A stretch of DNA of 64,000 bases from Bryoerythrophyllum caledonicum (Eukaryota; Streptophyta; Bryopsida; Pottiales; Pottiaceae), in contig OZ020520.1 in NCBI GenBank assembly GCA_963971425.1, forward strand, positions 25,996,754-26,060,753, written 5' to 3'. The notes below the pieces were generated by a model, which was given only the letters and a program-made list of their open reading frames with translations, was not told the DNA's origin and did no database searches. This document shows positions 21,949-55,285 of this stretch, in pieces; the stretch's first letter is position 1; every line of letters begins with the position of its first letter. The translations under genes were made by a program, and so were the position numbers.

Positions 21949-22356
21949 AAAACTTCTGCTTCTAGCTAACCTGTGATCAACCAACAAAAGCAATATAGGT
22001 GAGGACGTTGGAGATGTGATGAGCTTGATGGAGCATCAAGGTGTTTATTAACGATATACCGCCCAGGAAGCCCAAAATGGGACTCTGGAGGTGCTAAAAC
22101 TCAATTTGCATGAAATCCATGAGGAATTAGGCTTCCAAAAACAAGGTTTAGATTTGCGCACACATTACATGAACACTATCCAACAATCAGATCATGATTT
22201 GGATTTATAGAACTCTTGGAAAAGCTAGAAATACAACACAAAATACATCAAATACACTAAAATACACTGAATAGATTGAATACCATGCCACATACTATGT
22301 TGTATTTCACACACATGCACATTGATTTTGGTCTCAAATTTGATTGAACTTTGTCT

Positions 22357-23311: not shown

Positions 23312-23587
23312 GACATTCTTCATTGTTTTGTGATTGTTGATCTCTTTCCTCACTTACGAAACTTATGTTTTGATTCAAATAAGGTTGGAACATTTTTGTA
23401 TACAATCAAGTAGAAAAAGCCAAAAAATCACTAATAATTGTGTATAAATATTTTCTTCACATATGAGATGTCAATGCAAAGCTATCAACCTAGTGCACAT
23501 GTGAACAACTCTTATTCAAAGTAATAAATTCTTGCAAGAATCTATTGATGGTTTAAGTGGTACACCCTCCAAATTCCACAGTTTTCA

Positions 23588-24540
23588 CTACCAATATACA
23601 GTAATTATAACCCCTAAGGTAACGTGATAGTTTTACGCCAAAAACACTCCAAAATTGTTGGATTCTAGTGCAATGGACAAAGAAGGAAACAAAAACTTCA
23701 ATTTCTTGTTCTGACCGTAGGATCTCAATTAAAATTTATTAAGTAATATGAAAACGATATTTCATACACTTTGACCGCACGGATTCAAAGATTACAATGT
23801 TTGAAGTCAAGCACATGGTTCATTTTTTTACTGCATTCAGTGGATCATCACACTTTGACTTCACTTGGTGTCAAATTTTTGCACTACACAAGGTTTAAAT
23901 CTATTACCATCTTGTTAAGCATGATGTTAGTTCCTTACACACCAATTTATAGAGGTAGAGGAAGGGTGTAGCATATTCAAAACAACTGTGCAAGGAGTGG
24001 AGGTTTGAAATTTGTTAATTGACACTTTAATTATTTGTGAACTATTATGTTTCAGATTGATAATCTGAATGGTCATAAAGAAGGTTCACACCACATATTG
24101 TTGTGGAAAAATAAAAAGTGAAAAATATAAAGATACTTAGGTTTTATGTGGAAAAGAAGAAAGTTTTTTGGTACCTTGTCCGACATTGAGTGACAATGTG
24201 TGAAAATGTTTGGCTTGGGTTGGTATGCTACTTTTCACTAAAGACAAGAACTTTTTTTTGACAATATGAAGGGAAATAATGTTACTTGCAAATATTGAAA
24301 ATCTCACATTGAATGGAGTGTCCTAGCCAAAGTCTTTGGAGGTGCCTGAGGTGTTCGCTCTCCCCATTTGAAATTCAATACCCCATAACTTTTTCATCAA
24401 ATGTCCAATTTCGGAAAAAAATTTGTTTTCCCACTAAGGTCTTGCTAATACCTTTTTATAGTAAAAATTCCAAAGAGGAATGTTGGAAATTGTCAGTATA
24501 GGAATCTGACCAAACTTTCAAAAAGCCCATTTTTGACACT
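23588..24540 (+). mobile_element. TTAA family A, copy 4 (diverged right end)
   Basis: Forward copy that starts with the terminal-type sequence AACCCCTAAGG and then follows the family body closely up to about 24.5 kb. The usual right end is missing or replaced, and the sequence continues into the edge at 24716. Confidence 0.55.
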
Positions 24541-24716
24541 TGGTCAAACACTGTAATCTATTCCATCGACCGTTGGATGTTGTGCAAAATTTCCCCAAAG
24601 TTGAGGTCATGGATTAAGTTCAATTTTGTAAGGTTAGATATTAATATTAGACATCAAATCCGGTTCAAAGAAAAATGTGGGTTTTCCATAAACATACCTG
24701 GGCGGTAAAGGGTTAA

Positions 24717-25343
24717 GAAGTTGAAGGGATGTGATAGGAAGGGCAAGGGAGAATTGACCCCCTCGCTCGTCCTTACCCGAGGTGGGCCCCCATCTTAATT
24801 GCATGGGGTCAATTTTCTGGCCTTCTTACTTTGGGGGTCCAGAGGCTTTTTTTGGATTTTTTTTGGACAAATTCAGGGCCTACGGCCATTGTTTACCTTA
24901 CAGGCCAGTGAAATCACAAAATTTTCATGGTATTGATGGTTACTCTACATTTGTGGGGTTCCATGTTCACCGCTGTATCTTCAGTATGCATTGGCAGACA
25001 CAACTGCAATCATTTTCAGAGGGGTAATAATGATCTTTCGACTTTGAATGTTCCCTGTCTATTTACGTTTGTCATCTTGTTGTTTAACTATTAACATATG
25101 TTTTGTTTATTATTTTACCTTAAGTTTTGTTTTCAAAGCATATATTTACAATTTAAGTTGGGTTAAATTGCAATTTTTGTTTAAGTTAAGTTACTGCATA
25201 AGGTAAATCATATTAACCGTTACACAACCCTTGCAATATATTTGGGTTACAATTTGGGCTAATTTGGGTTGTTTAAGGGTTACATTTTGGGTTTATTTTG
25301 AGCTACAGTTAAATCACGTTCTACTTTTAGTACCATAGCTTAG
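24717..25343. other. AT-rich intergenic stretch, no gene seen
   Basis: Includes a TTGGGTT-rich run between about 25240 and 25310. No coding region or RNA gene is recognisable. Confidence 0.3.
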
Positions 25344-25547
25344 TACTACACCAAACACTGCATATAGTGTGAACCATAGTAGTTCGAGTTTCTACACTAA
25401 TTGAAAATATACATCCAATCGGTGACTGATATACACTTGCTTGAAAACAAATAGCCAATCAAATTTTGACATGCATGTGCTTGATAATAATTAGTGCGGG
25501 TGATCCACATCTATGATTCCACACTATATTTAGTATTTGGTGTAGGT
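25344..25547. mobile_element. MITE family B, 0.2-kb copy
   Basis: Terminal TACACCAAACACTGCATATA on the left faces TAGTATTTGGTGTA on the right. The copy at 36619-36827 is the same short type in the opposite orientation, sharing motifs such as GCATGTGCTTGA. There is no coding capacity. Confidence 0.55.
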
Positions 25548-25724
25548 TATTTCATTCTAATCATGAATGCTTGATTCGAAGGTCTAATTGTAGCCCAAAC
25601 TAGGTGGGGTTTCATATTTGGCGCAAATGCTCTTAGGGTGGAAACCAGAGGACATGTAGTGAAATTTTACCAAATGACCAATACTCTCAAATCCAGCTAA
25701 AATTTGACTTAAATTTTTAAACTA

Positions 25725-26330
25725 ACCCATCAATTTTGTTGACAATTTCACACCAATGACACTTCAAACCTGTAAATTCTAGTGCAATGAGTAAGGGAAC
25801 AAAAATTTGTATTTCTAATTTCAATCACAGGATATCATTTAACACTTGAAAAAAAACATACTCACAAAATTTCATCAAGGTTGATTGCACAGATTGAAAG
25901 ATTATTGTGTTTGAAGTAGGAAAAATGGTTCTTTTTCATATGTGCATTGAGTTATCAGCAGACTTTGACTTCACTTGGTGTCAAAATTCTCCCCTACACA
26001 AGGTCTACATTTTATATCATCATGTTTATCATGACATTAACTCCTTGTTCACCAATCTTTAGAGGTTTAGAAGAGGTGTAGCATATTCAAAAATATTGTT
26101 CAAGGACTGGGGGTTCAAAAAGGGACAATTCATGTTTTAAGTTTTCAGGAACAAAATATGTTTTAGAATGATAATCCGAGCGGTCAACAAGAAGGTTTAC
26201 ACCACATCTTTTAATTAGGAAAAAAAAGTAAAAAATATGAAGATTTTAAAGTTTTATGTGGAAAAGAAGTTTTCTTGTTCCTTGCCTGACAATGTGTGGC
26301 AATGTGAGAAATCTTTGACTTCGCCCGCCC
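25725..26330 (+). mobile_element. TTAA family A, copy 5 (truncated)
   Basis: Forward copy that begins in the family's left part (GACAATTTCACACC) and stops in the middle of the body near 26330, where it meets a more GC-rich stretch. The right end is missing. Confidence 0.55.
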
Positions 26331-27085
26331 GACATTCCTTGCCCGGCTTCATCCTCTTCTAGTTCTCATCCGCCTCCCTAACTGTCGGCATGCCACTTCT
26401 TGAGGTTAAGTTACCTAACCAATGTCCATAGAGGTCTTCTTCACTTAAATGCCTTGTTGTCTTGATTGTGCCTTTGACATTCAATGCAGTTGTCAATTAG
26501 GCAGCTTGTCATGACCGACGCCTGCAAGACAAGTTTTTCCCAGTCCAAGTAGCGTTTTGTATCTTTGTTGATGCATTGAAAGGCATTGGTTGAACGGGGG
26601 ATTCACGAATACCGCGGGATTATGGGTGTACGGTGGATCTCGGAGAATGGGAGGAATTTGGGGAGGCCGGGATCGTGAGAGAGGGAATAGGGTTATGGAA
26701 GGCTGCGATCCAAATTTGGGGTTAGTGGAATTGCGCGTTTAGTATGTGAGAGGATGGAAGACGTGATCTGGTTGTGACGTTCTCCGGCAGGTGCTGACTG
26801 AGCCCGGCTTTGTCGTTATCGTGGAGTAATCCGGTAGCACTTGATTGGAGCATCATCGTGTGTGGCCGGATCAAGTGTTGTGCACGCCATTGGGGAGTGT
26901 GGGGAGGCGCTGGTTGCCGTAGTGGAGTGGGACATGGAAAACGATAGCAAAAGAGTGGGAAATAGATGGCGCGGCAAATGAAAGGCGACTTGGAAGGAGC
27001 GGGAAGTGGAAGGCGACCGAGGTGAAACGAATCATGCACTGGAAGCGGCAATATATGCGGATGCGCGCGTCGTCATTTACGTCGT
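26331..27085. other. Moderately GC-rich stretch, no gene recognised
   Basis: Composition rises here. Open frames on the minus strand (for example 26722-27051) are rich in Pro, Ser and Arg, start on non-ATG codons or lack any recognisable domain, and look accidental. Confidence 0.3.
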
Positions 27086-27262
27086 GAGGCGCTCGCTTAG
27101 CCAACAGTTGCGGCAGGCCGCGTTGTAAGGCGCGTGGTGCGATGTGTGGTAGGGCGCTCGCTTGGGCACAGACTGCGGGTTGGCGCTTTGCGAGGTGCGT
27201 GGTGAAGCGCTCGCTCCCGCACTAGCTGCGACTTGACGCAGCACAAGGCGCGTGTTGAGGAG
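27086..27262. repeat. GC-rich minisatellite, about three diverged units
   Basis: Three imperfect units of roughly 60 bp, each beginning with a GGCGCTCGCT-like or AGCGCTCGCT-like motif (about 27089, 27151, 27207), followed by a TGCG-rich part and GGCGCGTG- or GTGCGTGGTG-like tails. High GC amid AT-rich surroundings. Confidence 0.5.
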
Positions 27263-27794
27263 GTCGTTGTGGCACCACCTATGGTGGGCGTGTGGGGAAG
27301 TACTGCTTGCTGCAGCATCAAAGAGGGAGTGTGCGTTCCGAACGTTGCGGACACGGCTTGTGCGGCCGGCGAGGGCACCTTCAACCCGACCCACAATGAA
27401 GGCAACCATAGAGTAGCGGCCCCACCAAGGAGTTACGCGTTTCCTCGTTCCACAAGTTGTCCAAAATTAGACCTTGGAACTTTTCTGAGGGTGAAGGATT
27501 TAGGGCCGTTTTGCATGTCTTGCCTTTTGCAATGAACCTATACGTTTGTAGTCATTGTTGTCTGTTTTGAGCGTACCAACCTGTGGTTATGGGATGTCTT
27601 CAAGGGTTTTCAGCGTGTCCATCTACATGCCACTACTCTCACATACCTCCTTAGTATCTTGTAAAGAATTTGAGATGAAAGAGTACAACACCATCTGCAT
27701 CATTAGGTTTTAGAGTAAGTCTAGCAATTAGAGTGAGGCGCTTTATAGTGGTTGGTATTTATTTATTTTGTTTTCAATTGCTTATGGAGTAAAT
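27263..27794. other. Intergenic stretch, no gene recognised
   Basis: GC-rich at first, then AT-rich. There is an open frame (about 27233-27535, plus) without recognisable domains. Confidence 0.25.
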
Positions 27795-28960
27795 CTGTCA
27801 TTACAATATTTGAATTTGGTAAACTAAATAGTAAAGTTTGTGTTTATGTTGGTCTTTATATGGTGTCCTTGACGCATAGTATGTCTCGATTAAATATGGC
27901 ATTACAATGACATCTAGGTTCCACATGTGCATAGAAGTAGCCATGGAGGGACCGTGTTTTCTTGTGGATTGTATTTGAAGGTTCTCGCATTCATAAGTAT
28001 AAAGCATTAGGATTTGTTTGAGGATACAACTAGTTTTTGGATTTCCAATACCGCTTTGTTGTATCTTTTGATGATTAGGAAATGTATGTGATGGTTTTGG
28101 CATTTGAGGAGTACGTGTAGCCATGTGTCCGGGTTCGTGAAGGTACATATTAGGCATGTTATGGATAGAAATTGTTCTATTCCAAAGAAGAGTTGTTTGC
28201 GGGCATTTCCCATGTATTGTCCAGTATGAAATTTGATAAGGCATGCTTATTGTAAGTATGTAATTGTGGATTTCTCCAAAAGTTTGTAGAGAGTTCGTTA
28301 TCAATGTTGTTACCAGTCCACTTGCCTATGTTAAAGAAACTTTCCGAGATGAAATCAAGGCTGTTAGTTAGATCTTGTTTTTTGAGATATATGTCCAGAA
28401 ATCTGATGGTGCCTTTGTCCGGGTGTCTTCTATAGAAGAACAACTATCTCTTTTGAAGTAGTACAGGATAGCCTGGGCATGTTCATACGCTTGTTTGGCA
28501 TTTTTATGGAATTTACCTAGTCCTTCTTTAGCTATTTTATCCACTTGTTCGTTTTCCTCTATATTGACATGTGCTCTAACTTTGTGGAGGGTTGTTATTT
28601 GTCGGCAATTCTATAGCATTTGTACCATAGATGTTAGTATGGCTAGGTTAGGGTGATTTTTGTAGAGGATTAGGTGTGTTATTTGTGTGTTTAATAGAAT
28701 TAAGACCTTTATACAATCAATAAAGATGTGTGCGGGTTCATTAATTTAGCGTATTGTGTAGTCATAATTTGGAGGGTTTTGTGGAGGGCCATCATTTATG
28801 CTTTGAGGATATTTTGAAGTCCATGCAGTCTTTTGGATCTTTTTATTTCTTTGGTGGAGTTATATATGCCATACTTGGCTTTTCTCTATGCCATTGTCCC
28901 GAGGCTTGCTTTTGTGGGTTCTTCAAAGGAACCATTTGTATAGTAATTGTATGAAATTTC
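27795..28960 (-). mobile_element. LINE remnant: RNase H and C-terminal zinc-knuckle region
   Basis: Minus-strand coding traces of a non-LTR retrotransposon. First comes an RNase H-like part at about 28740-28440 (NEPAHIFIDCIKVL, then HKVRAHVNIEENEQVDKIAKEG). A long open segment 28443-28177 follows, and then the tail 28213-28007 with CLICTFTNPDTWLHVLLKC and KRYNKAVLEIQKL, matching the Cys/His motif and conserved RxNKA block of LINE C-termini. The first part contains a stop (an in-frame TAG in the RNase H stretch) and the frame changes near 28.44 kb, so it is not functional. The reverse transcriptase lies, if present, to the right and is not recognisable. Confidence 0.65.
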
Positions 28961-29235
28961 AAATTTTAAAGGAATATGGTCACAATATGTGGAGAAGGGG
29001 GGTGGTGTAGCGACGTGGGTTTGTGTTGTGTTAGTTTGGAGGCACTATATAAAAGTGTAAACGTTGGTAGTGCAATTTTTATTTTAAATACTAGCTTAGT
29101 TACGATTTATAAAACAATCATCAAGGGCACCATAGCGTCACCACCTCTTGTGCATGTAAGAAAATAAGTCACTTACCCATTGTAAAAAAATGCAATTAGG
29201 TCTAATATTGCATCACAATCATAGAGTCAAAGACA
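28961..29235. other. Junction between LINE and copia remnants
   Basis: Short AT-rich stretch with no recognisable feature. The copia fossil ends here without its RT part. Confidence 0.25.
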
Positions 29236-31360
29236 CTATACTATGTGGAGAAATTCACAAAAATTCTTGAAGGTATCACTCTTGATAGCTAAAAAATATA
29301 CCCAAGACCACCATGAGAAATGATCAATAAATGTCAAGATATAGGGTGATCCTTGGAGAGAAGGATGTGGGAATGGTCGAAAGAAGTCTGAGTGTACAAG
29401 CTCAAGAGGGCGGGTAGTGATAGTCAAGCTATGTCTTGGAATTGGGTGGCATCGATGCTTTCCTAAAATACAAGCTTCACAAGTGGTATGGACTTGTTTT
29501 TATGCGGGGAGTCCATGGACAAGACCTTGTCGAGAAATATTTGTGACGGATTGATAATTCAAGTGAGCCATGCGTTGATGCCAAAGGTTTGAGAGAGGTT
29601 TGGAGGTTGTAGCTACATTGGCTGAGGGTTTCATGTATGATATAGGTGTTCTTGGAGTCCCATGTGGAGATGAATTTAGGCAAAATAAGCTATTTGCATG
29701 TGTACATGAACCTGTAAGAATCACTTGATTTAGGTTTCGACATGCAAAAATCCAACAATCCTTTGGTCCAAAAAATGTGTGATGTCCTGCATCTGCTAAT
29801 TTTCCAATGGAAAGTAAATTCTTGCATAAGCCAGGGACATAGAGAACATCATGGATGGATTTATTGCTTGGTGAGTTAACAACGCCTTGTGTTGCCACCG
29901 GTAAGGCACGACCACTTGTACTAGTGATCTGGGAATTTGTTCTACTCTTAATTTGATAACAATCTCTTGTTGCCTGTAACATGCGTACTTACTCCACTAT
30001 CTAAGAACCACTTGTCTAAAGAAGGATAGTTCATTACCTCTGCTGCATAGATCTCATGAACTTCAAGGTCCTCATACTCTTCTGAGGTGTCTGGGGTTTT
30101 TGCAACATTAGCTTGTCCACCTCTTGTCCAAGTTGAAACCTGTAAGCCTTGATTGAGTTCCAAATCACGGATCTTGTTCTTCAAGCGTCGGATCTCACAT
30201 TTGTCCGCCCAGTCGTCAAGTGAGCCGCATTCATGGTATACACGGTTGCGAGAGTAGGAATCGAAGCTGGAGTTTGAATTGCGAAATGATTTACATGTGT
30301 AATGTCGGGGCGGTGCATCCATGCCGGTTGACGTCGTCGGCTGCCTGACTATCGGCTTTGGGGGAGTTCTGTGGGCTCCACATCTGTCTGCACGACCTCC
30401 TCGTCCATTCCCACGTCCACCTCGGAATTCTTGTGAGATTGCCATTGCCTCCTCAATTTCCTCTCGCGCCTTGATTCTAGTCTTCATGGCGTCTTCTTGT
30501 AGCAGCAGGACCTCTAAACCTGAGTATGTTATTGGATTTTCTCTAGCGTTGACAAGCTGTTGCATAAATGTCCAATTGTTGGGAAGACTCATTAGAACCC
30601 TATCTACCAGATCTTCATTAGGTAGGAGCACACCAATGTTGGTAAGTTGATTCATAATAGAATTGAAGCTTCGAAGGTGCTCCTCCATACTTTGTTTTTC
30701 TGTCATGCTCAAACCATAGGATTAATTTTTTAGGGTAAGCCTCCTATTCATGGTTTGAGACTTGAAGAGATTTTGCAGTTTGATTGACATCTGCCTAGGA
30801 TCAAAGAGATGCATGATATGTGGAAGGAGGGAGTCCTTACCTGACAATGTGATGATGCGGATAGCCTTGTGTCGCAGATCATCAAGTTCTTCTAGATCTA
30901 CTTCAACTTGAGTCGCCTTGCCTCTTGCAGCTACAACTGCTACTATTGGTGTAGTAATCTCTGACGAATCACCTATGTCAGATGCACATGTAGTACGAGA
31001 TGGAGATAAGGTAGGAACTACCATCTTCCAAAGTTTCTAACTGCGCAAATTGTTAGTGGTCTTGAAGGCCCAGTTAGTATAGTTTGAGACGTCTTGAAGC
31101 TTAGAGCTCTCAGGGACTTCTCTTCCGCTGAGTACAGACTCCATCTTGGAGTGAGGTCTAAATGATGCTAGACTATCAAAGAAAAACGGCCAAAAAACAA
31201 ACCTGCTCTATTACCATGTTCAAAGTAACCAAAGAAGTGGTTTGACTTTAGACTTTGACAGAGATACAACAGTTGCAATGCAACGGTTTTATACTAATTG
31301 CTAAGCCTAATGCTAAACCTAATTACTGTAATTCTGTGAAGCTAATGAGATCTGTCAACA
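29236..31360 (-). mobile_element. Ty1/copia LTR retrotransposon, 5' half only (fossil)
   Basis: Minus-strand Ty1/copia fossil. A 5' LTR (31217-31360) is followed directly by a primer-binding site, then gag (about 31.02 to 30.2 kb) with a zinc-knuckle-like part, an aspartic protease (WFLDSGVSTHVTG), the GAG-pre-integrase block (NLWHQRMAHLNYQS) and the beginning of the integrase core. Protease and integrase come in the Ty1/copia order. Reverse transcriptase, RNase H and the 3' LTR are absent. It is broken, with a few breaks in the remaining part plus the large missing half. Age cannot be estimated from one LTR. It is inserted in a TTAA-type MITE. Confidence 0.85.
31217..31360 (-). repeat. 5' LTR of the copia fossil, 144 bp
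   Basis: On the minus strand it runs from TGTTGACAGATC to CTTTGAACA, so it has TG...CA ends. It carries a TATAAAACC promoter-like motif. It is followed at once by TGGTAATAGAGCAGG (31216-31202), close to the usual initiator-Met primer-binding site TGGTATCAGAGC. Confidence 0.75.
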
Positions 31361-31440
31361 CATAGTAGATTCTGCAAAAATCATCTACCACACTCCTAGA
31401 TTTTCCATCAGCCCTAGCCTGCCCGGCCTTAAAGGGTTAA
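31361..31440. mobile_element. Half of a TTAACCC MITE interrupted by the copia LTR
   Basis: Read inward from 31440 it is TTAACCCTTTAAGGCCGGGC..., matching the complete MITE at 61440-61569. It stops exactly where the copia LTR begins. The other half is not found beyond the truncated copia. Confidence 0.65.
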
Positions 31441-32113
31441 AATGACTCTGATTGAACTATTGAACTAACCTTGATTGGTTAGCTCTATGCACGCTTACTT
31501 CATGTATGCACATTGCATACTTCTTGAATTCCTTGTGTCGTGAGGGGAACTATCAAACAATTTGTAATCCTTTACTAGGATGAACAAGCCAGGCAACGCT
31601 TTGTAAGCTTCTTGCTCCACTTTACCGAACGACCTAACCGTTGGGCCTTGCAACAAGTTCCTGTAATTGCATCGGTGATCAAAGGCAAAGCAACATATGG
31701 CACTTGCCAACTCTCGGCGCCTACAAGACAAGCATTTTCAGAGCACTGAATCTGTGGGCAATAAAGTGCCAACCTCGTCCGTGCAACTAGATGGTGAGAA
31801 TTTTGACAACGGTGAGAACTTTGCCTTGTTGTATACACGAAGTAGGCTTGGAAAGTAGAAACATGTTCTCACACAGACGGTTGCAAAATGAGATCCAGAA
31901 AAGTCTGAATAGATGCAATGGCTTAACCTAAGATGATTCAAAGCATTTGCGAGATTTACGGAGACAAGGGAAATTCTCATCAAAGCTCTTCGCTGAACTT
32001 GTAAGCTCAAAGTATTGATTTATTTCGAAAATCTATTGTTTTTTTGTTTTGCTACAATTGCTTGGGAGTTTCGTGATTAGTAGCAAGGTAGAACAATCCA
32101 AAATCGCAAGTTT
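31441..32113. other. Intergenic stretch, no gene recognised
   Basis: Several minus-strand open frames of 78-90 codons overlap here, none with a recognisable domain or consistent splice structure. Confidence 0.25.
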
Positions 32114-33062
32114 TTAAACCCTAAGTTTCTGTGACAATTTCACACCAAAAACACTTCAAAACTGTTGGTTTTAGTGCGATGAGTAAGGAAGAAAAGTAAA
32201 TTTTTATTTCTATTCTGAACCATAGGATCTCAATTAAAATTTATTAAATAACATACTCACAAAATTTCATAACTTTGACTGCACGGATTGTAAGATTATA
32301 GTGTTTGAAGTAGAGAAAAGGGCTCATTTTCTTTCCTGCGTTTAGTGGATTAGCAGACTTTGACTTCACTTGGTGTCAAATGTTTGTACTACACAAGGTC
32401 TAAATTAATTTCCATCATGTTAAGGATGATACTAGTTCCTTGTACAACAATTTTTAGAGGTAGAGGAAGGGTGTAGCATATTCAAAAAAATTGTGTAAGT
32501 TGTGTAGGTTTGAATATTGTCAATTCACGTTATATTTTTTTGTGAACTTAATATGTTTTAGATTGATAATCCGAATGATCAATGCGAAGGTTCACACAAC
32601 ATAATGTTGTGGAAAAAATAAAAAGTGAAAAATAAGTAGATCTCTAAGTTTAATGTTAGAAAGAAGAAGTTTTTTGGTACCGTGCCCAACAATGTGTGAC
32701 AATGTGTGAAAATGTTTGACTTGGGTTAATATGCTATTTTTCACTAAAGACAAGAATTTTTTATGACAATATGAAAGGAAATAATAATATTCCCGAGTAT
32801 TGAAAATCTCACATTCAATAAAGTGTCCTAGCAAAAGTTTTTGGAGGTGCTTGATGTGCCCGCTCTCTCCATTTGAACTTCAAAACCCTATAACTTTTTC
32901 ATTAAATTTTGGATTTTAAGAAAAATTAAACCCACACAAAGCTTTTAGTATTTTCCATCTTCAATGAAAATTTCAAAGAAAAATGTTGTAAATTGCCACC
33001 ACAGGAACCTACCCGAACCTTCTAGAGTCCCCTGAGGGGACTCTTGGAAATTTAGGGGTTAA
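32114..33062 (+). mobile_element. TTAA-bounded repeat family A, copy 6
   Basis: A 949-bp forward copy with TTAA at both ends: left TTAAACCCTAAGTTTC, right GGAAATTTAGGGGTTAA. It is the best full-length match to copy 3 and fixes the family boundaries. It has no coding capacity. Confidence 0.72.
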
Positions 33063-34450
33063 AACTGACTGGGAGTCTGAAATGGGGCCAATGCTAAGAA
33101 CATGCAGTCATGAGTAAAAGAGAGAAGGACCACCACATGCATGACCCAAAACCACACCGGCCTACATTGTAATTTTAGAGCAAGGCCACGAATGACGAGC
33201 TCGAGTGAGGTGGAGCAACCCAAACCTACACACCTCCCAAGAACCCATTTTCTAACCTATGCACGGAATGGTGAAATCTGACACGAATCAACCGACACAA
33301 ATTCTGGATAAGTGCAACTAGAAATATTTAGTATTGTTCTACCTTAGAACTGGACAAGCTGAAAAGGCTTGCGCAGGGTGGAAAAGCTTGCACAAGGTGA
33401 AAAAGCTGGCCAGCATGAGAAGACTTGTCGCGAGTCCATGCAAAAAAATCCACATGAACGTGGATGACGTCGCGGTGGAGTGACGGACAGTTCCCCGCAG
33501 GCAGTCATGTCCCCCTCCTCGAGTTGTTTCGCTGTCGTAAGCCGCACTTCCGCCAACTCTTCACAACCTGTCAAGCTGCACCACAAGTCTCCCACTCCCT
33601 CAACCATCCTTGTCCTCCACAGTCCACGCTCGTGATGATACTGACAAGGCATGCAGTGGATAAACCACTGGAAAAGCTCGAAATGTAGAGATGATCTGCT
33701 AGACTACCGTACCTCTTTGTCGAAAGAATTATTCTTCTTTGACTCAGTGATGCAGACAAAATGGGTATCACCTACGTATAACATGGCTAGAACATTATAC
33801 GGGTAGCACCTTGATATCACAATATGTCTAATCACCTAGACAAAAAAATTATATTTTCCAAAATTTTGGATAACTCTCTTAATTATGTACGAAAGCAACC
33901 ACGGCGTAGGGTACAATAGTTTTTGTCGTTGTGATCCTTGAGGTTTTCATTTTATTGGCGTGTTTTAGGACCCAGGAGAGCAGGTGTAACTTGCGCATGG
34001 ACAATGCTACTGCATGGGAGGCGCCTGTGGCGTGGTATACGAGGCAATGATTTGCGACTTGATGAAAGCTTTCGTGAAGCTTGTCCGTTGTGCATTTGAG
34101 GATTCTTGAGTTTCTCGTTGAGGTGAAGCTAGCTAGCTGTGGAGCCTTGACGGAGTTGCAGCGCACTTCGGAGCTGCCTTCTAAGTTCACGTGCAAGTAA
34201 GAGGGGATTCTTTTTCGTTTCGATCAGGCATTACGATGTTTCAAGCATGTATTTGGCGCTTCTGAACTTACTCAGCTTGAGCTTCTCTTGTAACTGCCGT
34301 TTTGTATGTTTGCCTACCTGTGAATACTAGTGTACCCTGGAATTTGATAACTTCAAGTTCGTAGCGAGCAGCAGATTAAGAATTTGATTCCGCTTCTGTA
34401 GAAGTAACTAGAGGCGATTAATAATGTTCGAGCTTGGAGTGACGTGATTG
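33063..34450. other. Region upstream of DUF2235 gene 1
   Basis: No coding region is recognised. The last few hundred bases before 34451 should hold the promoter and leader of DUF2235 gene 1. I see no clear TATA box close to the start. Confidence 0.3.
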
Positions 34451-35563
34451 ATGGCGCTCTGTGTGGAAAATGTTGCCAGGATGAGTAGCTCTCACCGGCG
34501 AGTAGTGGTGCTGCTGGACGGGACCTGGCAGGAGCTGACGAACCGCACCAACGTCGCGCTCCTGAACGAGAACATCGACGCCGGCAAGACAGGGGATGGC
34601 ATCGAGCAGGTCGTGACGTACTTCCCCGGGGTCGGCACGTCCATGTACGAGCGCCTCCGCGGCGGCTTATTCGGCTACGGCTTGTCGGAGTCCATCAAGG
34701 ACGCCTTCTTGTGGCTGTCGCAGACCTTCCGGCCCGGCGACGAGGTTTTCGTGTTCGGTTTCAGCCGCGGGGCGTACTCAGCGCGGAGCCTGGTGGGTCT
34801 GATGCACAAGTGCGACGGCGTGGTGAAGCAGCCGACGCAGGCGCTCATCGACGAGGCGTACGACCTCTACCGCGACGCCAACAGCGACGCCACGCGGTTC
34901 CGCGCGGACCACTGCGTGAAGGCGCGCGTGCGCGTGATCGGCGTGTGGGATACGGTCGGGAGTCTCGGCATTCCGGTCTCGGGCCTCCCGCTCGTGCTCC
35001 CCGGCACGCGCGACTACTACCGCTTCCACGACACCAACCTGTCATGCATCGTCGACGAGGCGTACCACGCGCTCGCGATCGACGAGAACCGCCACGACTT
35101 CCAGCCCACGCTCTGGGACGCCACCACGGAGCAGAACAAGGTCGTGGAGCAGTGCTGGTTCATCGGCGACCACGGCGACGTCGGGGGCGGCAACCCAACG
35201 CCCACGCTCTGGAAGCTCGCCTACGTCTGGATGCAGGATAAGGCCATCGCCGCGGGGTTGCGCATGAAGACAACGCTGACCGCGGATGAGGAGTGGCGCC
35301 AGGCGCCCTCCGACTCCTTCAGCAGCTTCCTGTACGGGATCTACAAGATCTACAGGCTGAATCAGCGTTACTTCCGGGAGCTCGGCGTGCATGTGGAGGA
35401 GGTGCTGCACCCGAGCGTGTTGAAGCGCGTGCAGAACGTCCCGGCGTATCGGCCGAAGCCGCTCACGAACGCTGGCATTCCAGAGAAGACAAACGAGATT
35501 CCGAGACGACGAGTGGTGAAGCCTTGCAGCTGCTCGAAAACGGACGGCGCGCCCACTTCGTAA
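34451..35563 (+). CDS. DUF2235 alpha/beta-hydrolase (Tle1-like lipase fold), gene 1
   Basis: Single-exon gene of 370 codons, strongly GC-rich compared with its surroundings. It matches the DUF2235 family (Pfam PF09994), alpha/beta-hydrolases related to the bacterial Tle1 phospholipases and common in fungi. Visible motifs: VVVLLDGTW near the N-terminus (18-26), the nucleophile elbow GFSRGAYSAR with Ser105, GVWDTVGSLGIP with Asp167, and FIGDHGDVGGG with His241, which together give a plausible Ser-Asp-His triad. DENRHDFQPTLW is another family block. The C-terminus ends with a short Cys motif CSCSK shared with gene 2. I took ATG 34451; a second ATG (34484) in front of SSSHRR is equally possible. 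No signal peptide or membrane segment is evident. The substrate in plants is unknown; lipid ester hydrolysis is inference. Confidence 0.9.
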   Translation: MALCVENVARMSSSHRRVVVLLDGTWQELTNRTNVALLNENIDAGKTGDGIEQVVTYFPGVGTSMYERLRGGLFGYGLSESIKDAFLWLSQTFRPGDEVFVFGFSRGAYSARSLVGLMHKCDGVVKQPTQALIDEAYDLYRDANSDATRFRADHCVKARVRVIGVWDTVGSLGIPVSGLPLVLPGTRDYYRFHDTNLSCIVDEAYHALAIDENRHDFQPTLWDATTEQNKVVEQCWFIGDHGDVGGGNPTPTLWKLAYVWMQDKAIAAGLRMKTTLTADEEWRQAPSDSFSSFLYGIYKIYRLNQRYFRELGVHVEEVLHPSVLKRVQNVPAYRPKPLTNAGIPEKTNEIPRRRVVKPCSCSKTDGAPTS

Positions 35564-47656: not shown

Positions 47657-48010
47657 GTTGAATCACTGAGTTGAAAAGGTGTTTAGTAATCTTTAGTCTT
47701 GTTTTCTACAATTGATATGCAATAAAAACCAGTTTGACCTTACAGAATCGTACACGCTTGATGAACATTTGAATTATTGTGTGTTTTTCTAATTCATATT
47801 TTCATTGAAAACTTTGTGCTTTATGCTTGTTGCAACTAAGGTTGGATGACCTATAACCGCCAACTTAAGCTTGCTGACCTATTTATAGCCTTTGTATACG
47901 TGGTAAGACATTTTTCGGGAATTCAAAATAGGATTTCATGAATATTGCAATTGTCGTGACCATTTATTTCTTCATATTGAAATTGCTACAAATTTTCATA
48001 GTGGATAGTA

Positions 48011-49290
48011 CAGTCCGCTCTCTATAAATGTTACTCCTTGGGAGCAGGATTTTTGGTAATACTTATGAAGTTATAACATATAACGTTTATAGAACTAGAT
48101 ACCAACGATTAGTAACACTCACAAAAATAACACTTATGAAATACAATACTGATGGTTAATAACATTTAAAGGAATATCACTCATGAAACTTGATAGTGAT
48201 GATTAATAACATTTAATGAAATAACACTTGTAAGACTTCAAAGAAAAATCCAAAACATATAGAGAATATGAAAGCTGAAAATACAAAAAATATAAACATA
48301 ATGCAACTAAATTCAACTCATCTAAACTCAACTAAACTCAACTCATCTAAAGTCAACTAAAGTCAACTAAATTCAGCCAAACTAAGTTTTATCGAAGAAA
48401 GAATCCATAGTGGATTGATGGATATCATCCATACGGGCAATTGCCACATCTTGCAGAAGAGTTTGAACCAAGTTGATGCGTGATGAAACATCACGTGGTC
48501 TTTGTTGAAGGAATTTCTTCACAATATGAAGTGCACCTTTAATAGTGTCAAATCCAACCACCTCGTCTACCGCATCATTTATAACCTCATCTTGCAACAA
48601 TCTCCAAGTTTGTCTAGGATATCCTCCTTAGTAGGTTCATAGGGATTATTTAAATCAAAGTCTACCTCATAGTTTATGAACTCATGAGCGTCCATAACAT
48701 TGCTATCTTTTAGGTCTAAAGATAAAAGTGAAAGCCAATGAGGCATGCACCTATTTGGAAAAAAAAAAATTTAAGAAAAAAAAAGAAAAAAAGCAATCAC
48801 CGCCAACAATCAAATCTTAGCCTAACAGGCTATGCATCCATGATGGGGTCGACGGCATGCCTCTTGCATGCGGCAAACAACCACACAAAAAGTTTAAAAA
48901 ACAAATAAATAAATAAATAAAAATAAAAACTCACTACATGGCTTGCAATACCCTTCTCCAATATGGCCTGCGATGCCCCTCCAAATACTGCTGGAAGAAT
49001 CCTGATAGATTCTTTTTTAAAAGGACAAATCTTCTCAAGTTCCACAAAAGATATGGTATATATTCATGTGAAGTAATTAAATTTTTTAAAAACAAGTTCT
49101 ATTATGATGTTTTTGCTAAATGTAACACTTATAGAATCATTTTAACAAAGGGGGGAGCGGAACATGTTATAACACTTAACATATAACACTTACTAGTGTT
49201 AATTTTGAGGTTTTTTTCTGGAGCGAGATTTTTAGTAACACTTATGCGATTCTAACACTTATAGAGGTAACATTTATAGAGAGCCGACTG
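48011..49290 (-). mobile_element. Pogo/Tigger-like DNA transposon, deletion derivative (copy 2)
   Basis: Terminal repeats TA-CAGTCCGCTCTCTATAAATG (left) and, read inward from the right, TA-CAGTCGGCTCTCTATAAATG, flanked by TA. The ends are typical of pogo/Tigger-like elements. Minus-strand frame 48600-48382 encodes only the transposase C-terminus: VKKFLQQRPRDVSSRI and then the tail HQSTMDSFFDKT, which resembles the TxxxFF tail of this family. The catalytic domain is deleted. Subterminal TAACACTTATAGAA-like repeats flank both ends. It is nested in the Tc1-like element. Confidence 0.8.
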
Positions 49291-49661
49291 TAAGTCGTGA
49301 CCCATTCTCGACATACAAAACTCTCTATTTCCACAATAGGTTGTAGTAATGACCACTTCTGCAAGAAACTAAAAACCGAGAGCTTTGAACCAATCATAAA
49401 CTGACAACCAATCATAACTGACTTCCTAAAATTTTGGAAATGGGGTGGGTGGGTGGTGGTTTTGGTCCACATTAGATAGTTGGTTCTGGGGTTCGTGGTG
49501 GTGATAGGTCATCCAACCTTGTATGTGCTTGTGGTTGTGTTCTTGCTATTTTATGAGAGTTCATGTAAATTTGATAGTTGATTTTGTAAAAGAGCTCCAC
49601 TAGTACAACTATTTCTGGTCGGCACTGTATATGAAACTATAACACTTATGGTGGTGACATA

Positions 49662-52600
49662 CAGTGACAAACAAAACCGAGTACAGTTTTTACTCACTTC
49701 CATTCAAAAAATGATACCATGAGTATCGGTGGGCAAAACCGAAATGTGTACAAATCAAAGTTGTAGTACATGATGTATTACACAATGCTTAAAAGTTTGA
49801 GGTGGAGTTGAATTGTGGTTTGGAAGATATCAAATGCCAAAATAGAGTGCCTTCATACTCACTTTTGTTCAAGATTGGTATGAGAGCTTTCAAAATATAC
49901 ACAATTTGGAATGAAGCCAATTTTCTTTAGTGTTGTCTTCATGGTATTGTAAACCATCATCTTGAACATGTGTATGCCTTTCATCAATGGAAATCAACCT
50001 TTGTGTGCATGAGATAAATCTCAAATTGTGGAAAAATAGATTTTTTCTTGTGAGAATGGCATTTGATAATCCTTTGTAGAATCGATAACATGGAATATTA
50101 GTGGACATCATAAGTGACAAACGTGAATCAATATTGGCCATTATTGCATGTATTTCATTTTGTATTTGAATTTTTTTAGTATTCAATAAACTCCTTTATA
50201 AACTTGATTATTTATATTGGAATGATGTGATGGTTTTCTTCTTCGACCTTATTGATGTGACAATGCTCATCAATGGAAGCTTTCCATCCACCACTTTGAT
50301 TTCACTTACTTGCATTTTGATGACTTCGTATCATAAAATACTCGACGCTCCATTTTGCCCCTTCTTTGATTTTCATACCAAAAATAGTTTTGATTGCATA
50401 CTTGGTTTGGGTGAAGAGGTTCTTACTTGCTCCCCAAGGCACCCAAAGTTAGTAAAGTCACAAATCGAGTATACAAGTCCCAATCCCCATTTTCACCTCT
50501 CACATTTATTTATCCTCAATCGTTTTGCTCTCCGCTCCTCCGACCATCTCCCACCTCGCTGGCTTGACTTATGTTGAATTATTCTCCACCATCCCTACTT
50601 GACTATCTGCCATGACTTCCATCACAGGGGAGCCTCCTGACTCAAGTCGTGCGCCCAGAGTCGGAGGAGATGCGCGCAGAGTTTATTCAAGAGGCGGAGC
50701 TGGAGCAGGCGCCCGAGTATTTTTCTCCCGTTCAGAGCATTATGAACCTTGACATCATTATGGATGACACCACCACCGCCAACCCCACAATTGGGCTCCC
50801 TTGCCCAGAGTGAGACCAAATGTACACGTACACTTGGCCGGTCGAGATGTCATACACAATGAATACACTCGTGTAGCGTCAAGAGCTTATCTACCTGCAT
50901 CCATAAGTATGTCAATAAATATGTCTTTCATCAATAAATTGAACTCACGCCTTCCTGTACAGCGGTCATGCAAGTGCCCAGTGCATGCCTTGTAATTTTG
51001 TAATCCTGTATTGTGGTTGAAAAGCCCATATATAACGAGCAAAGTTGCAAACCTGGATTGACCTACTCGGAGTTGCTAAATTGAATCATGCCTTCAAATG
51101 TCGGAGCATTCATCCACTTGAAGCATTCACCCCAAGTGAGTTCGAGCACGGAATTATTGGCATGCTCCTGTGCTTTCACACCATGCTCCTTCCTACGAAG
51201 GAGAATTTTTCCAATGTAAGCATATGCAAATCAAAGCTCATATGAGAAAGCAGGATCTGTTGAAATTCTGATTCAAGACATGAAAAGAAACTCAGAAGCA
51301 GGCTACCTTCATCATGATACAGAGCACACGCTGGCAGAATACTTACCAATTACTTCATCATCCGTAAACAACACCCTTTTGCCACTAAATTACACACAAT
51401 TCTGCTTATCTCAAATACTAGCACAGCGTGCACCTCTGCCGGTATTTGCCCCTAGATAAACCTGCGGAGTAAGTTATGCCCCAATTTTCAAAAGGCACTT
51501 TCACCGAGTGGCCGATGAACATAAACAAGACTGTGCAGGACCATGCAGGATATGGATCTAGGTAAAGCAATGTTCAGATTCATACCAACAGTTTTATTCA
51601 TTAGTCACACAACAATTTGGAAGTTTGTTACGTGCACCCAACTTCCTTCGCCACAAAACAGCCTACAAGCTTCAGAATGGTTAGAATCCTCCACCAGAGA
51701 TCTGCTGGAGCAGTTGAACCTCAACCGGTATGGCAGCAGCAGGAGCTTCCTTCTTCAAAGAGCCGGAGGTTGTGGATTGTCGATAGACTCGATCTCAATT
51801 TCTCTTTAGAGTTAGCACATTATTCATTGGAAGTCTGCAATTCCACCATCTATTGCAATGCCACCATCTAATCCACCTGCAGACTTCCGAGTATGTGTGG
51901 TCGAGGGGAGACTCCTTGCAACTGCACCGTTCACGAATCACATGCAGACGCAAGATCATCCTTCAAATCTGCTTACAAGCAAATGGCTGTCTGGTACCTC
52001 CTCTTCATGTGCTTCAACCTCAGACGTTCGCTCCTTATCTGAATCTCCATCAACCATATCCTTGTGTCTCTCCAGTGTCAGCAATGTCAATGGGAGCCAG
52101 GTGACCAGTTCCCTCCATCTCCGACTCGATGTTCTCATACTTCGAAACCTCTTCACCCATAGCGATTAAAACTATTTTTGGTATGAAAATCAAAGAAGGG
52201 GCAAAATGGAGCGTCGAGTATTTTATGATACGAAGTCATCAAAATGCAAGTAAGTGAAATCAAAGTGGTGGATGGAAAGCTTCCATTGATGAGCATTGTC
52301 ACATCAATAAGGTCGAAGAAGAAAACCATCACATCATTCCAATATAAATAATCAAGTTTATAAAGGAGTTTATTGAATACTAAAAAAATTCAAATACAAA
52401 ATGAAATACATGCAATAATGGCCAATATTGATTCACGTTTGTCACTTATGATGTCCACTAATATTCCATGTTATCGATTCTACAAAGGATTATCAAATGC
52501 CATTCTCACAAGAAAAAATCTATTTTTCCACAATTTGAGATTTATCTCATGCACACAAAGGTTGATTTCCATTGATGAAAGGCATACACATGTTCAAGAT

Positions 52601-52897
52601 GATGGTTTACAATACCATGAAGACAACACTAAAGAAAATTGGCTTCATTCCAAATTGTGTATATTTTGAAAGCTCTCATACCAATCTTGAACAAAAGTGA
52701 GTATGAAGGCACTCTATTTTGGCATTTGATATCTTCCAAACCACAATTCAACTCCACCTCAAACTTTTAAGCATTGTGTAATACATCATGTACTACAACT
52801 TTGATTTGTACACATTTCGGTTTTGCCCACCGATACTCATGGTATCATTTTTTGAATGGAAGTGAGTAAAAACTGTACTCGGTTTTGTTTGTCACTG
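49662..52897. mobile_element. Long-arm inverted-repeat element with captured cargo (TA-flanked)
   Basis: Two arms of 736 bp (49662-50397 and 52162-52897) are reverse complements. Every stretch I compared was identical, with no net length difference; mismatches appear only at the innermost bases. The ends read TA-CAGTGACAAACAAAACCGAG on both sides. The TA target and CAGTG ends point to Tc1/mariner, non-autonomous. The spacer of about 1.76 kb has no transposase but contains exon-like pieces. Each arm holds the same accidental 98-codon open frame. Mutator-type membership is less likely because I see no 9-bp target duplication. Confidence 0.85.
50398..52161. other. Cargo of the long-arm element: exon-like fragments
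   Basis: Less AT-rich than the arms. At 50629, after an acceptor-like TTCCATCACAG, a plus-strand frame runs to TGA at 50811-50813 (VRPESEEMRAEFIQEAELEQ, then a Met/Asp-rich part and a C-terminus TIGLPCPE). It resembles a last coding exon. On the minus strand, 52156-51956 is a second charged open stretch (Glu/Lys-rich, ending VSRFEG). Neither is recognised. They could be pieces of host genes picked up by the element. Confidence 0.4.
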
Positions 52898-53395
52898 TAT
52901 ATAGAGTCACAAAATCATTGCATGTTAATTCTTAATTAGGCTTTGTAGAAACTCGAACTACACGTTATATGAAGTCAACGGTGTATTGGTACACTCGGAA
53001 ATTCTCACAGAAACACACGTGGTTGTAAAATATGTATATCGTGCTGGACCACCAGCATCTCTGCAGGCAATCCGTATTTTAAAATAGGCATAATGACGAG
53101 TACTACTGTCACAACACGTGATGCATTCTTGCCGACATATGTGCCTGAATCCAGTCGGTATGCCAACCGCATCTTCCTCGACATGCACAAAGGTAAAGGT
53201 TTCTCCAGGTACTGAATGTCTGGTCGCGTTTGCGTATTGTGGCTGACACTTTGAAGGTCTCCTTCAAATCCAGCTCCCTCAAGCTGGCCTTTAGTTTCAC
53301 TACATAACTAATCAATATTTTAATCCAAGAAATGCTAATACATGACAGGGATTTTTTGTTGGAGATTGCGGGAATGGGCCTGTGCATTCAGGGCA
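52898..53395. other. Intergenic stretch, no gene recognised
   Basis: Short minus-strand frames overlap here without recognisable domains. Confidence 0.25.
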
Positions 53396-53539
53396 CCAGT
53401 ACAAGTGGGGTTGTTTTTGACACTGTAGAGTCTAAAGAATATTTTATTGTGCACACGTTTTCGACACTATTTTGGACACTTCACTTTTTAAAAAAAATGT
53501 CGTATATAGAGTGTCGAAAATAGCCCCATTTGTACTTGG
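53396..53539. mobile_element. MITE family C, complete, 144 bp
   Basis: The left end CCAGTACAAGTGGGGTTGTT pairs with the right end, read inward, CCAAGTACAAATGGGGCTAT; the inverted repeat is about 29 bp and includes TTTTTGACACT/TTTTCGACACT. No coding capacity. It lies about 240 bp beyond the stop codon of DUF2235 gene 2. Confidence 0.75.
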
Positions 53540-53781
53540 CGTTGTGCATAATAGAAGCATGCGAACCCATTCCAGGTTTACTTTAAAACAAGTTCAGCAT
53601 CAGAAATAACAGAATATATATTATGCGGTATTTCAAAGTAGATATTTCATTAGAAATGGAATTTGAGGTAGAAGTAACTGGAGAAACAAATTCCACGAAC
53701 AAACAGTAGGATTGCAAACCATGTTGTACGAATTCGAAGCTGATATGTACAAACTGGGAAGCAAACGCACGCGGCGTGAGC

Positions 53782-55137
53782 TCACGTTTTCTTCTTGGTG
53801 GCCGGGTGAGTACCATTACTAGAACCCGAGGCTGGCGCCTTGGTCTGGAGGTGAAGCTTCTTGCAGCTGCACTCCTCTTCCGGCAGATCCTTCTTTTCGA
53901 TCTCGGTGCGCCACTCGCCCGTGACGCGATCCAGCAGGCTCGGGGGGCGGTAATGACTGTCCTGCTGGAAGCGCTCCTTGACAGACCAGTGCAGCGCCGC
54001 GCCCACGGAGCCCAAGACGTTGCGGTAGTATCGACTCTTGAACGACGCGTAGAATCCGTGCAGCATCTGGCCGAACGAGTCCTGCGTCTTCGTCTTGGAC
54101 ACCCGGCGCCGTTCGCTGACGGTTCCGGAGGGGTACGAGTTCAACGGCGTCCCCTTGTCAGCGGAGGTGGTGGCGGTGTCTGTCTCGCCAAGCTCGACGG
54201 CCTTGCCAGCGCCGTAGATCCAGTAGAAGCGCAGCCCGAGGTTCTGCGCCTTGTGCTGCATCCAGATGTAGGAGTACTGCCACAGGTCGTCGGGGTCCTC
54301 GTCCTCGTCGCCCGTGGCGCCGCCGCCCACGTTGCAGTGCGACCCGATAAACCACACCTGGCGCACGTCCTTATTCTCCGGCTTGCGCTTGTCCCACAGC
54401 GTCGGTTGGAAGTCCTCGCGGTTCTCGTCGATCGCGAGCGCGTGGTACGCGTTCTCAACAATGCAGGGTAGGTCCTGCCCGTGGAACCCGTAGTGCTTGC
54501 GCGACCAGGGGACGATGTAGTCTAGGAAAACGCCCAACGGCTGCAGGACCGTCCAGTTGAGCTTGAATGCGGAGTCCGGGATGCCCAGCGCGCCCACCGT
54601 GTCCCACACGCCCACCATCTTTATCGTCACGTGCTGGCAGTACTTGGCGCTGAACTCCCGCAGCTGCTTCTCGTCCACATGCTCCCGGCGGTAGAGATTG
54701 TACGCCTGGTTGAGCACGGCGTTCGAGATCTCGGGTTTCCCGTCCTTGCGGGTCAGGACGCCGCCGCTGCGGTGTACCAGGGAAACCAGGCTCCGCGCGG
54801 AGTACGCGCCGCGGCTGAACCCGAACACGAAGATCTCATCGCCCTGGCGGTAGTTGTTGGACAGCCAGCGGTAGCCCTCCTTGATGATGTCCGAGAGGCC
54901 GTAACCGAACGCGCCGCCCAGGAACGTGCCCACCCTGTTGGTGCCCACGCCCTTCAGGTATTTCACCAGCTGCACCGGCTCGGATTCCGGGTCCACCTCC
55001 TCGCCCTTGTCCGGCTTGTAGTCGTCTATGGCCTCAAACATCCGCGCCACATTCGTCAAGTTGTGCCGCTCGTTCCAGGTTCCGTCAAACATCAACACCA
55101 GGCGCCGAATATTCTTCTTACCAGTCGTCTCTGCCAT
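53782..55137 (-). CDS. DUF2235 alpha/beta-hydrolase (Tle1-like lipase fold), gene 2
   Basis: Single-exon, GC-rich gene of 451 residues, a diverged paralogue of the gene at 34.5 kb in opposite orientation. Motifs: LVLMFDGTW (13-21), the nucleophile elbow GFSRGAYSAR with Ser108, GVWDTVGALGIP with Asp179, and FIGSHCNVGGG with His267. In gene 1 the last motif is HGDVGGG, as is usual in the family, so Asp is replaced by Asn (269) here. DENREDFQPTLW is conserved. A Ser/Thr/Lys-rich insertion at about 315-352 is absent from gene 1. The C-terminus has CSCKK, as in gene 1, followed by a Lys-rich tail. I chose ATG 55137 because DGTW follows at the same distance as in relatives; the upstream extension has no ATG. 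The end of a MITE lies 8 bp before this ATG. Substrate unknown. Confidence 0.9.
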   Translation of the reverse strand: MAETTGKKNIRRLVLMFDGTWNERHNLTNVARMFEAIDDYKPDKGEEVDPESEPVQLVKYLKGVGTNRVGTFLGGAFGYGLSDIIKEGYRWLSNNYRQGDEIFVFGFSRGAYSARSLVSLVHRSGGVLTRKDGKPEISNAVLNQAYNLYRREHVDEKQLREFSAKYCQHVTIKMVGVWDTVGALGIPDSAFKLNWTVLQPLGVFLDYIVPWSRKHYGFHGQDLPCIVENAYHALAIDENREDFQPTLWDKRKPENKDVRQVWFIGSHCNVGGGATGDEDEDPDDLWQYSYIWMQHKAQNLGLRFYWIYGAGKAVELGETDTATTSADKGTPLNSYPSGTVSERRRVSKTKTQDSFGQMLHGFYASFKSRYYRNVLGSVGAALHWSVKERFQQDSHYRPPSLLDRVTGEWRTEIEKKDLPEEECSCKKLHLQTKAPASGSSNGTHPATKKKT

Positions 55138-55145
55138 CCTGTCAA

Positions 55146-55285
55146 CCAGTACAAAATGGGGTTCAAGTTTTTGACACTCTGAATTCAATACTTTTCGGTG
55201 TTCAAAGTGTCGAAAAAACTGTCGGGAAAAATGTTAACAAACTTGTGCATAGTGTAAAAAACTGTGGAATTTAGAGTGTCTGGTT
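55146..55285. mobile_element. MITE family C copy or fragment at the 5' side of DUF2235 gene 2
   Basis: Begins CCAGTACAAAATGGGGTTCA, followed by TTTTTGACACT, matching the left end of the MITE at 53396. The far end is not clear; an AGTGTC-containing sequence at about 55278-55285 may be a remnant. It forms the sequence directly before the start codon of gene 2. Confidence 0.55.

Follow-up and report, generated by a model that had tools for sequence, protein, structure and literature searches.

Tc4 of Caenorhabditis elegans is a near-palindromic transposon of about 1.6 kb, with arms of about 0.77 kb and a loop of tens of nucleotides, for which a variant with a replaced interior is known; it has a TNA target and a different group of transposase. 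Long palindromes are unstable, and in mammalian cells, as Cunningham et al. reportedly described in 2003, a palindrome broken at its center is rearranged with asymmetric loss around that center. Here, we analyze a 64,000-nucleotide stretch of the genome of the moss Bryoerythrophyllum caledonicum (GenBank assembly GCA_963971425.1, contig OZ020520.1, positions 25,996,754 to 26,060,753), referred to as the window, in which an element at 49659 to 52900 carries two almost identical inverted arms around 1.76 kb of host DNA. We read this element, with a probability of roughly 0.6, as a non-autonomous Tc1-type hairpin transposon of which the 37-nt tip has been replaced by host DNA. It differs from Tc4 in that its target is TA, instead of TNA, and in that its ends match those of a Tc1 element with a DD34E transposase.

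In another moss, Physcomitrella patens, the transposon PpTc1 measures 1,584 bp, with 33-bp ends, and its CAGT ends, TA target, and DD34E transposase are all found here too, in elements of about 1.58 kb with 30 to 35 nt of shared end; however, the likeness is one of description, not of sequence, and the part of that account available to us describes no hairpin partner (PMC4054914). Galileo, of Drosophila mojavensis, resembles our family in its long arms, 98 to 100% alike within a copy, and in its many solo-arm copies (64/170), but it belongs to the P-element superfamily by its transposase, and tip-centered breakage is not described in the sections at hand (PMC3573991). Pack-TYPE elements, including Pack-Mariner, are likewise non-autonomous and hold host gene pieces between terminal repeats; there, according to the excerpt consulted, DNA is captured by neighboring insertions, whereas the piece described here sits at a hairpin tip and was found once (PMC8903248). 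As for breakage and repair, the available portions of two further reports state that SbcCD cleaves hairpins (PMC3315005) and that yeast breaks are filled with DNA from distant loci and show inverted duplications of 5 to 34 bp (PMC11724301). The latter invite comparison with a 14-nt inverted junction sequence found here, although that match is by pattern only and the yeast work concerns an experimental system (PMC11724301). Titles and abstract openings, covering part of the literature, yielded no account of a Tc1 hairpin family with tip breakage in a moss.

The inverted arms of the window element (49659-50397 and 52162-52900) are 739 nt each and, by repeat search and arm alignment, differ by two mismatches and no indels. 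Both mismatches lie at the inner edge, at arm positions 734 and 737 (50392 and 50395 in the window), leaving perfect identity over 49659-50391. This pairing is far above chance level: the runner-up inverted pair within 48500-54500 is only 44 nt at 70%, and the next-best pair in the whole window, with arms up to 12 kb apart, is 431 nt at 77%. The element, in which the arms make up 46% of 3,240 nt, is flanked by TA at both ends, carries TACAGTGACAAAC at both ends (CAGT...ACTG), and contains no transposase gene. On the left, the arm extends to about 50406 via the family tip sequence CTTGGT; on the right, it ends at AAT, and the 37-nt loop is gone. A 14-nt inverted symmetry continues inside the cargo (50408-50421 and 52146-52159). 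Rfam gave no match at E ≤ 0.1 across 49000-53600, and a general repeat search, with no dedicated tandem-repeat search made, found no multi-copy repeat family inside the arm of the kind that makes the arms of Drosophila FB and Galileo internally repetitive. The features are as follows.

49660-49661, no strand: left TA target dinucleotide (TA on both sides)
49660-49685, plus strand: left terminal 26 nt, TACAGTGACAAACAAAACCGAGTACA, common to the ~1.58-kb Tc1 elements (end-motif and alignment comparison)
49659-50406, plus strand: left arm, equal to the right arm over 49659-50391, with family tip sequence at 50392-50406
50408-50421, plus strand: 14-nt TGGGTGAAGAGGTT at the left cargo junction, inverted repeat of 52146-52159
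50417-50642, plus strand: cargo piece 1, from the 5' region and initial codons of a Dof-like gene; identity to C15, 90.7% (L050 596-810)
50643-50653, no strand: internal deletion junction A, ~0.7 kb including the Dof zinc finger missing relative to L050
50650-51833, plus strand: cargo piece 2, from the C-terminal and 3' part of that Dof-like gene; identity to C15, 97% (L050 1501-2671)
51829-51854, no strand: internal deletion junction B, ~0.36 to 0.54 kb missing relative to L052/L051
51833-52160, minus strand: cargo piece 3, 93% to C15 (L051 960-643), its right part related to a frame on C9 (L064)
52146-52159, minus strand: inverted counterpart of the 14-nt junction sequence, with an identical match in host locus L059
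52162-52900, minus strand: right arm (inverted-repeat search)
52898-52899, no strand: right TA target dinucleotide

The original prediction, made from the letters of this stretch, had described a TA-flanked element at 49662-52897 with near-identical 736-bp arms and without net indel between them. Both points are borne out, the 736 nt being the 739-nt arms minus the TA, and so is the 98-codon frame reported as unchanged in both arms, trivially so, since the arms are identical. Its assignment to the Tc1/mariner type agrees with the TA flanks and with ends common to DD34E Tc1 elements, and the arm length that it called unusual for this type does stand out (~748 nt in the family, against the 12 to 28 nt given as typical in the part of PMC4054914 available). 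It had not seen the 37-nt-loop hairpin as the usual member, the captured host interior, or the tip as a breakpoint.

The genome-wide search for the arm sequence that it had proposed covered 437 Mb in 894 contigs and gave at least 59 matches (40 of 196 candidates scored), which were sorted by hand into 39 places, 15 of them, window included, with two facing arms. The usual copy is a near-palindrome of about 1,535 nt, in which an arm of ~748 nt, a 37-nt loop occurring in either orientation, and a second arm of ~748 nt make up practically the whole element, as in foldback or long-arm hairpin elements. Motif counts indicate a larger family: the 26-nt end motif occurs at 253 places with up to three mismatches (reversed-pattern control, 0), the outer, middle, and inner arm motifs at 173, 117, and 144 places (control, 0), and the loop motif at 62 (control, 2). 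TA stands on both sides in 14 of the 14 two-ended copies printed, window included, although TA was part of the search pattern, in which up to four mismatches were allowed; L007 has CA instead at its one end. Among the first 100 of the 144 inner ends, a facing partner within 250 bp is present for 48 and absent for 52, two of which are the window's own; the latter figure is a maximum, as partners with more mismatches go unlisted. The window element is, then, a member of a dispersed, non-autonomous Tc1 hairpin family. A search for the empty site with the joined flanks, in which 40 of 288 candidates were scored, showed 41 matches, none of them crossing the join; its left-flank matches belong to another abundant repeat, and the first ~90 to 97 bases of that flank match at least 38 other places in the same scoring. 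Separately, two facing hairpin ends lie 8.9 kb apart at C6:3555504 and C6:3564413, both with an uncommon variant of the middle motif, and are possibly one element with a large insert.

Ends of the same type also belong to other elements. Twenty-three listed zero-mismatch ends had no listed mate and were absent from the arm-search matches; 21 were read inward, leaving out two on the small contigs C201 and C442. Ten proved to be of the hairpin type, and 11 match the hairpin over the first 27 nt only. Together with L070, these 11 align with one another, with 30 to 35 nt of end common to all, and the five of the 12 that were translated (L070, L073, L085, L088, and L092) hold Tc1 transposase coding stretches. 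Four were tested against Pfam, with PF01498 above cut-off in L073 and L070 and PF13358 in L088 and L092 (separate stretches); L092 matches Sleeping Beauty 5cr4 (E 3e-38), and its translation has 34 residues, counted by eye, between the second D and the E, that is, DD34E. Facing ends are 1577 to 1596 nt apart in 11 pairs among the matches listed, sorted by length only. Judging from these alignments, the outer 26 to 27 nt of the hairpin also end a ~1.58-kb Tc1 transposon (DD34E, Sleeping-Beauty-like), which is the likely source of transposase for the hairpin family; because the ends are shared, its transposase would be expected to move the hairpin. An autonomous long-arm element was considered as source and rejected, as what the transposase elements have in common with the hairpin is 27 nt of end and not the arms.

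Genes of the Dof type are typically found in green plants, and it is from a Dof-like gene that much of the cargo derives. With 50425-52140 as query and all 22 candidates scored, 31 matches were obtained, the window alone having the full interior. The 1.76-kb cargo can be divided into three pieces collinear with a C15-type locus; L051 and L052 hold them in the same order within 2.4 to 2.8 kb, with piece 1 matched partly there. Pieces 1 and 2 are the start and the C-terminal part of the Dof-like gene, which in L050 has a 391-codon open frame with PF02701 (E 7e-15), the zinc finger lying in the part lost at junction A. With the finger gone and the frame shifted, the cargo as it stands is predicted to be incapable of encoding a Dof protein. 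Piece 3 is related to a 745-codon open frame in L064 (C9), which has no Pfam match above cut-off. Since the cargo is without pieces that the C15 loci have, transfer ran from C15 to the window. The C15 loci themselves (L050, L051, L052, L058, and L060) form a cluster at 2.75 to 3.38 Mb, some of them interrupted, and the Dof-like gene is Pfam-confirmed in L050 only. Among the 30 matches outside the window, 11 short ones fall outside the set L050 to L068, and the 19 loci of that set show no arm match within the flanks read.

Both cargo junctions lie at arm tips. Of the internal joints, junction A has a TGCGC overlap and junction B, by eye, next to none; capture of a spliced transcript was considered, as the cargo breaks resemble exon ends, and rejected, there being no GT-AG at the junctions by eye. 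Just inside both cargo junctions stands TGGGTGAAGAGGTT, inverted, at its only two places in the window. The right copy matches host DNA (L059); on the left, the L050 and L058 version lacks three of its bases, and the exact sequence is absent from L050, L051, L052, L058, and L060. A short template switch would explain the inverted pair, and chance is also possible.

How such an interior could come to lie between two arm tips is suggested by the incomplete members of the family. Taking L035 (1,536 nt) as reference for break positions, we sampled 20 copies that have one complete arm but, over the stretch read, lack a full arm facing it; L030, a palindrome with an insert, was dropped from these. 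Of the remaining 19, 18 stop or jump at 735-791, that is, in tip plus loop, and one does so at 986 (expected share, 57/802; binomial p, 4e-20, for an interval set post hoc); the loop ± 15 nt (734-802) also holds 18 of 19. L039, which is without its outer 72 nt beside a run of N, was not counted as a break; counting it gives 18/20. L008 and L028 (2/18) retain part of the second arm, and the other 16 tip cases have no second arm within 1.5 kb, or within ~8.7 kb for L031 to L034. As this sample demands one complete arm, a less biased one is provided by the 10 hairpin-type zero-mismatch ends: three stop at the tip (743, 784, and 787), four inside the arm (358, 375, 375 in a local duplicate, and 561), and three have deletions that reach the center. 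With the duplicate counted once, three of six stops fall in the tip interval (p, 0.001). The duplicate is L079/L080, two copies that look like a local duplication because they are identical over 375 nt, share an end point, and lie 34 kb apart. Internal deletions point the same way: of the nine measured, eight touch or span the tip (p 0.004 under random placement), and the tip holds 4 of their 18 endpoints (p 0.004); the extra copies L069, L071, L093, and L094 were selected for unusual end-to-end length. From the 18 of 19 stops at the tip and the eight of nine deletions that reach it, we infer breakage at the hairpin tip. Bases left unmatched at the deletion joints were considered as further host cargo and rejected: those in L082 are a mirror copy of a first-arm insert, and those in L086 and L069 are, by eye, short copies of nearby element sequence.

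The likeness of the arms was examined in an alignment of 51 arms from 35 of the 39 places (C14:18105014, C2:14543910, C14:5717299, and C12:4431140 left out), with 16 two-arm pairs compared, among which L046, L030, and L039 enter with partial second arms. Arms differ by 0.14 to 2.6% within a copy (median, 1.07%) and by 1.2 to 6.3% between copies (median, 4.3%; 1,259 comparisons). The window copy, at 0.27%, lies at the low end of the within-copy range, with L038, L046, and L045 similar. Of the variants private to one copy, summed by hand, 71 are present in both arms and 54 in one; in the window copy, the numbers are five and one. Since the same private change is unlikely to have been gained twice independently, the arms appear to have been homogenized within each lineage. 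A single hairpin insertion found in three places (L036, L039, and L048, on C570, C1, and C11) with shared flank is useful for timing this: L036 and L048 match at both flanks and L039 at its one readable flank. In this trio, 26 columns vary, and at six of them one copy has in both its arms a state absent from the others, suggesting that the arms changed together after duplication. Three sites in columns 165-201 of L048 were considered as a conversion tract and left uncounted, three changes on the L036/L039 branch being an alternative. Finally, L082 (C7:20863207-20864156) has, mirrored in its two arms, a foreign insert of ~57 nt, one side of which adjoins a deletion beginning at the tip; such a mirrored insert would require arm-to-arm copying. 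Given the two-arm private variants and this insert, the identity of the window arms is probably not simply a matter of youth, and gene conversion is favored over youth alone. Of the two alternatives that the original prediction had offered, recent origin or gene conversion, it is thus arm-to-arm copying that the family data favor, with recent origin possible for the window copy itself. The long double-stranded RNA that it had envisaged as a source of siRNAs is so far unsupported; it would require read-through transcription across both arms, between which the 1.76-kb cargo now lies.

Taken in order, the mechanism that we propose for the window element would run as follows. Tc1 transposase would mobilize the hairpin family, and gene conversion between arms would keep them alike. 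A hairpin of this size would be expected to extrude, or to fold during replication, and to suffer a cut close to the tip; trimming of one side during repair would then leave one-armed or center-deleted copies. In the window copy, the center of the palindrome would have been broken and the break sealed by copying or inserting ectopic C15-type DNA, with template switching or trimming during repair, and the larger spacer may have made this copy less break-prone. Transposition, conversion, and breakage are read here from the fossil copies of one assembly, unlike the center-break rearrangements known from mammalian cells. A number of observations weigh against this reading. The break-and-fill step rests on one cargo copy, and among the copies sampled, no intermediate was found; neither was a second copy with ectopic DNA at its tip, although the original prediction had suggested looking for copies with other cargo. 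Identity to C15 reaches 97% for piece 2 but no more than 90.7% and 93% for pieces 1 and 3, so that the exact donor is missing from the loci compared. The tip interval was drawn after the data had been seen, a more distant second arm is possible for twelve of the tip cases because only 1.5 kb was read, three of the six independent stops in the less biased sample lie inside the arm, L078 and L086 lose homology again inside the second arm (uncounted), and the deletion in L071 lies off the tip. As to conversion, arm differences within the trio copies (9/740, 9/740, and 7/669) are about as large as those listed between them (9 to 13/740 or 10 to 12/669; nearest, 9/740), so conversion is not fast, and the near-zero difference of the window arms fits youth too, L038, L046, and L045 being as alike.

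The nearest rival is gap repair after excision, in which re-copying from the sister chromatid stalled at the tip and the gap was closed with C15 filler. Abortive repair of this kind is known for other cut-and-paste elements; it would also place junctions at the tip, keep both ends, and account for short overlaps at deletion joints (TGCGC in the cargo; L078, L071, L093, and L094), but it fits poorly with the 16 of 18 tip cases that have no second arm or end, most of them read for 1.5 kb, and we regard it as possible but unlikely. Doubtful, too, is capture in the Pack-TYPE manner, by which two neighboring or one-armed copies flanking a host gene piece were mobilized together as one element. Pack-TYPE elements, including Pack-Mariner in rice, gain DNA in this way, going by the part of the report seen (PMC8903248), copies with one arm in the stretch read do exist in this genome, and the window element does hold a host gene fragment between terminal repeats. 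On the other hand, independent arms would differ by about 4.3%, unless later converted, where these show 2/739 and five shared private variants; the 19 other cargo-matching loci carry no arm, a donor absent from the assembly being possible; the junctions are at the arm tips; and whereas Pack-TYPE elements mobilized after capture occur in several copies with their cargo, the whole cargo occurs once. It is scarcely credible that the short-loop palindromes derive by deletion from an ancestral window copy: nothing beyond the existence of both forms speaks for it, and short loops abound (62 motifs; control, 2), whereas the full interior is present a single time.

Two further explanations concern the arms rather than the cargo. 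Recent transposition without any conversion, which is compatible with the other readings, would account for the 2/739 differences, for other pairs being similarly alike, and for the similar distances within and between copies of the trio; since it leaves the five private variants in both window arms, for which a shared origin is unlikely without homogenization, the two-arm changes after duplication, and the mirrored insert of L082 to be explained, we consider it improbable as the sole cause. An assembly artifact, in which the arms or the one-armed copies stem from mis-joined palindromic reads, is brought to mind by the N runs beside L046 and L039. It is very improbable, because 14 of the 38 other places of the family show the same two-arm plan; in addition, no N occurs in the 0.2 to 8.8 kb beyond the arm at the 23 places checked, and arm pairs carry distinct differences and TA on both sides. 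The idea that one-armed copies are halves parted by translocation is possible but unsupported: the nearest one-armed pairs differ by ~2.3% over full arms (L007/L010 and L032/L071) and by 1.7 to 2.0% over partial arms (L072/L083, L072/L023, L019/L083, and L008/L082), distances that fall inside the wide within-copy range of up to 2.6%.

Several other features of the window deserve mention. About 30 bp to the left of the element, 49540-49632 is the right end of another Tc1-ended repeat, marked by TACAGTGCCGACC on the minus strand at 49617-49629. Farther to the left, a 26-nt inverted pair (48009-48034 and 49267-49292; 96%; TACAGTC...GTTAC) resembles the termini of one more small element with TA flanks. 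The proteins tested from the window include a GH17 protein, a copia gag, and two PF09994 proteins, the latter from open frames at 34448-35563 and 53782-55188 with the catalytic domain of T6SS Tle1-like proteins (E 3e-65 and 2e-68). Finally, several older, overlapping inverted repeats at 15600-32700, such as 21406-21836/22506-22936 (77%), are apparently a cluster of diverged copies.

More tentatively, the window element and its relatives might illustrate a wider rule, by which the tips of long hairpin transposons break repeatedly and act as traps for host DNA: repair would remove one arm or else close the gap with copied gene fragments, and conversion between the arms would rebuild the hairpin, leaving it able to break anew. 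Natural series comprising intact, one-armed, center-deleted, and center-filled versions of one palindrome seem to us uncommon, although we made no search for them. As this family has well over 100 arms in a single genome (144 inner-end motifs), its sequences should reveal how often and where center breaks occur and how they are repaired. If true, filling of the tip would be a gene-capture route for DNA transposons distinct from Pack-TYPE fusion, in which gene fragments would be gained by way of repair and not through the transposase, and conversion between arms would explain the persistence of unstable hairpins.

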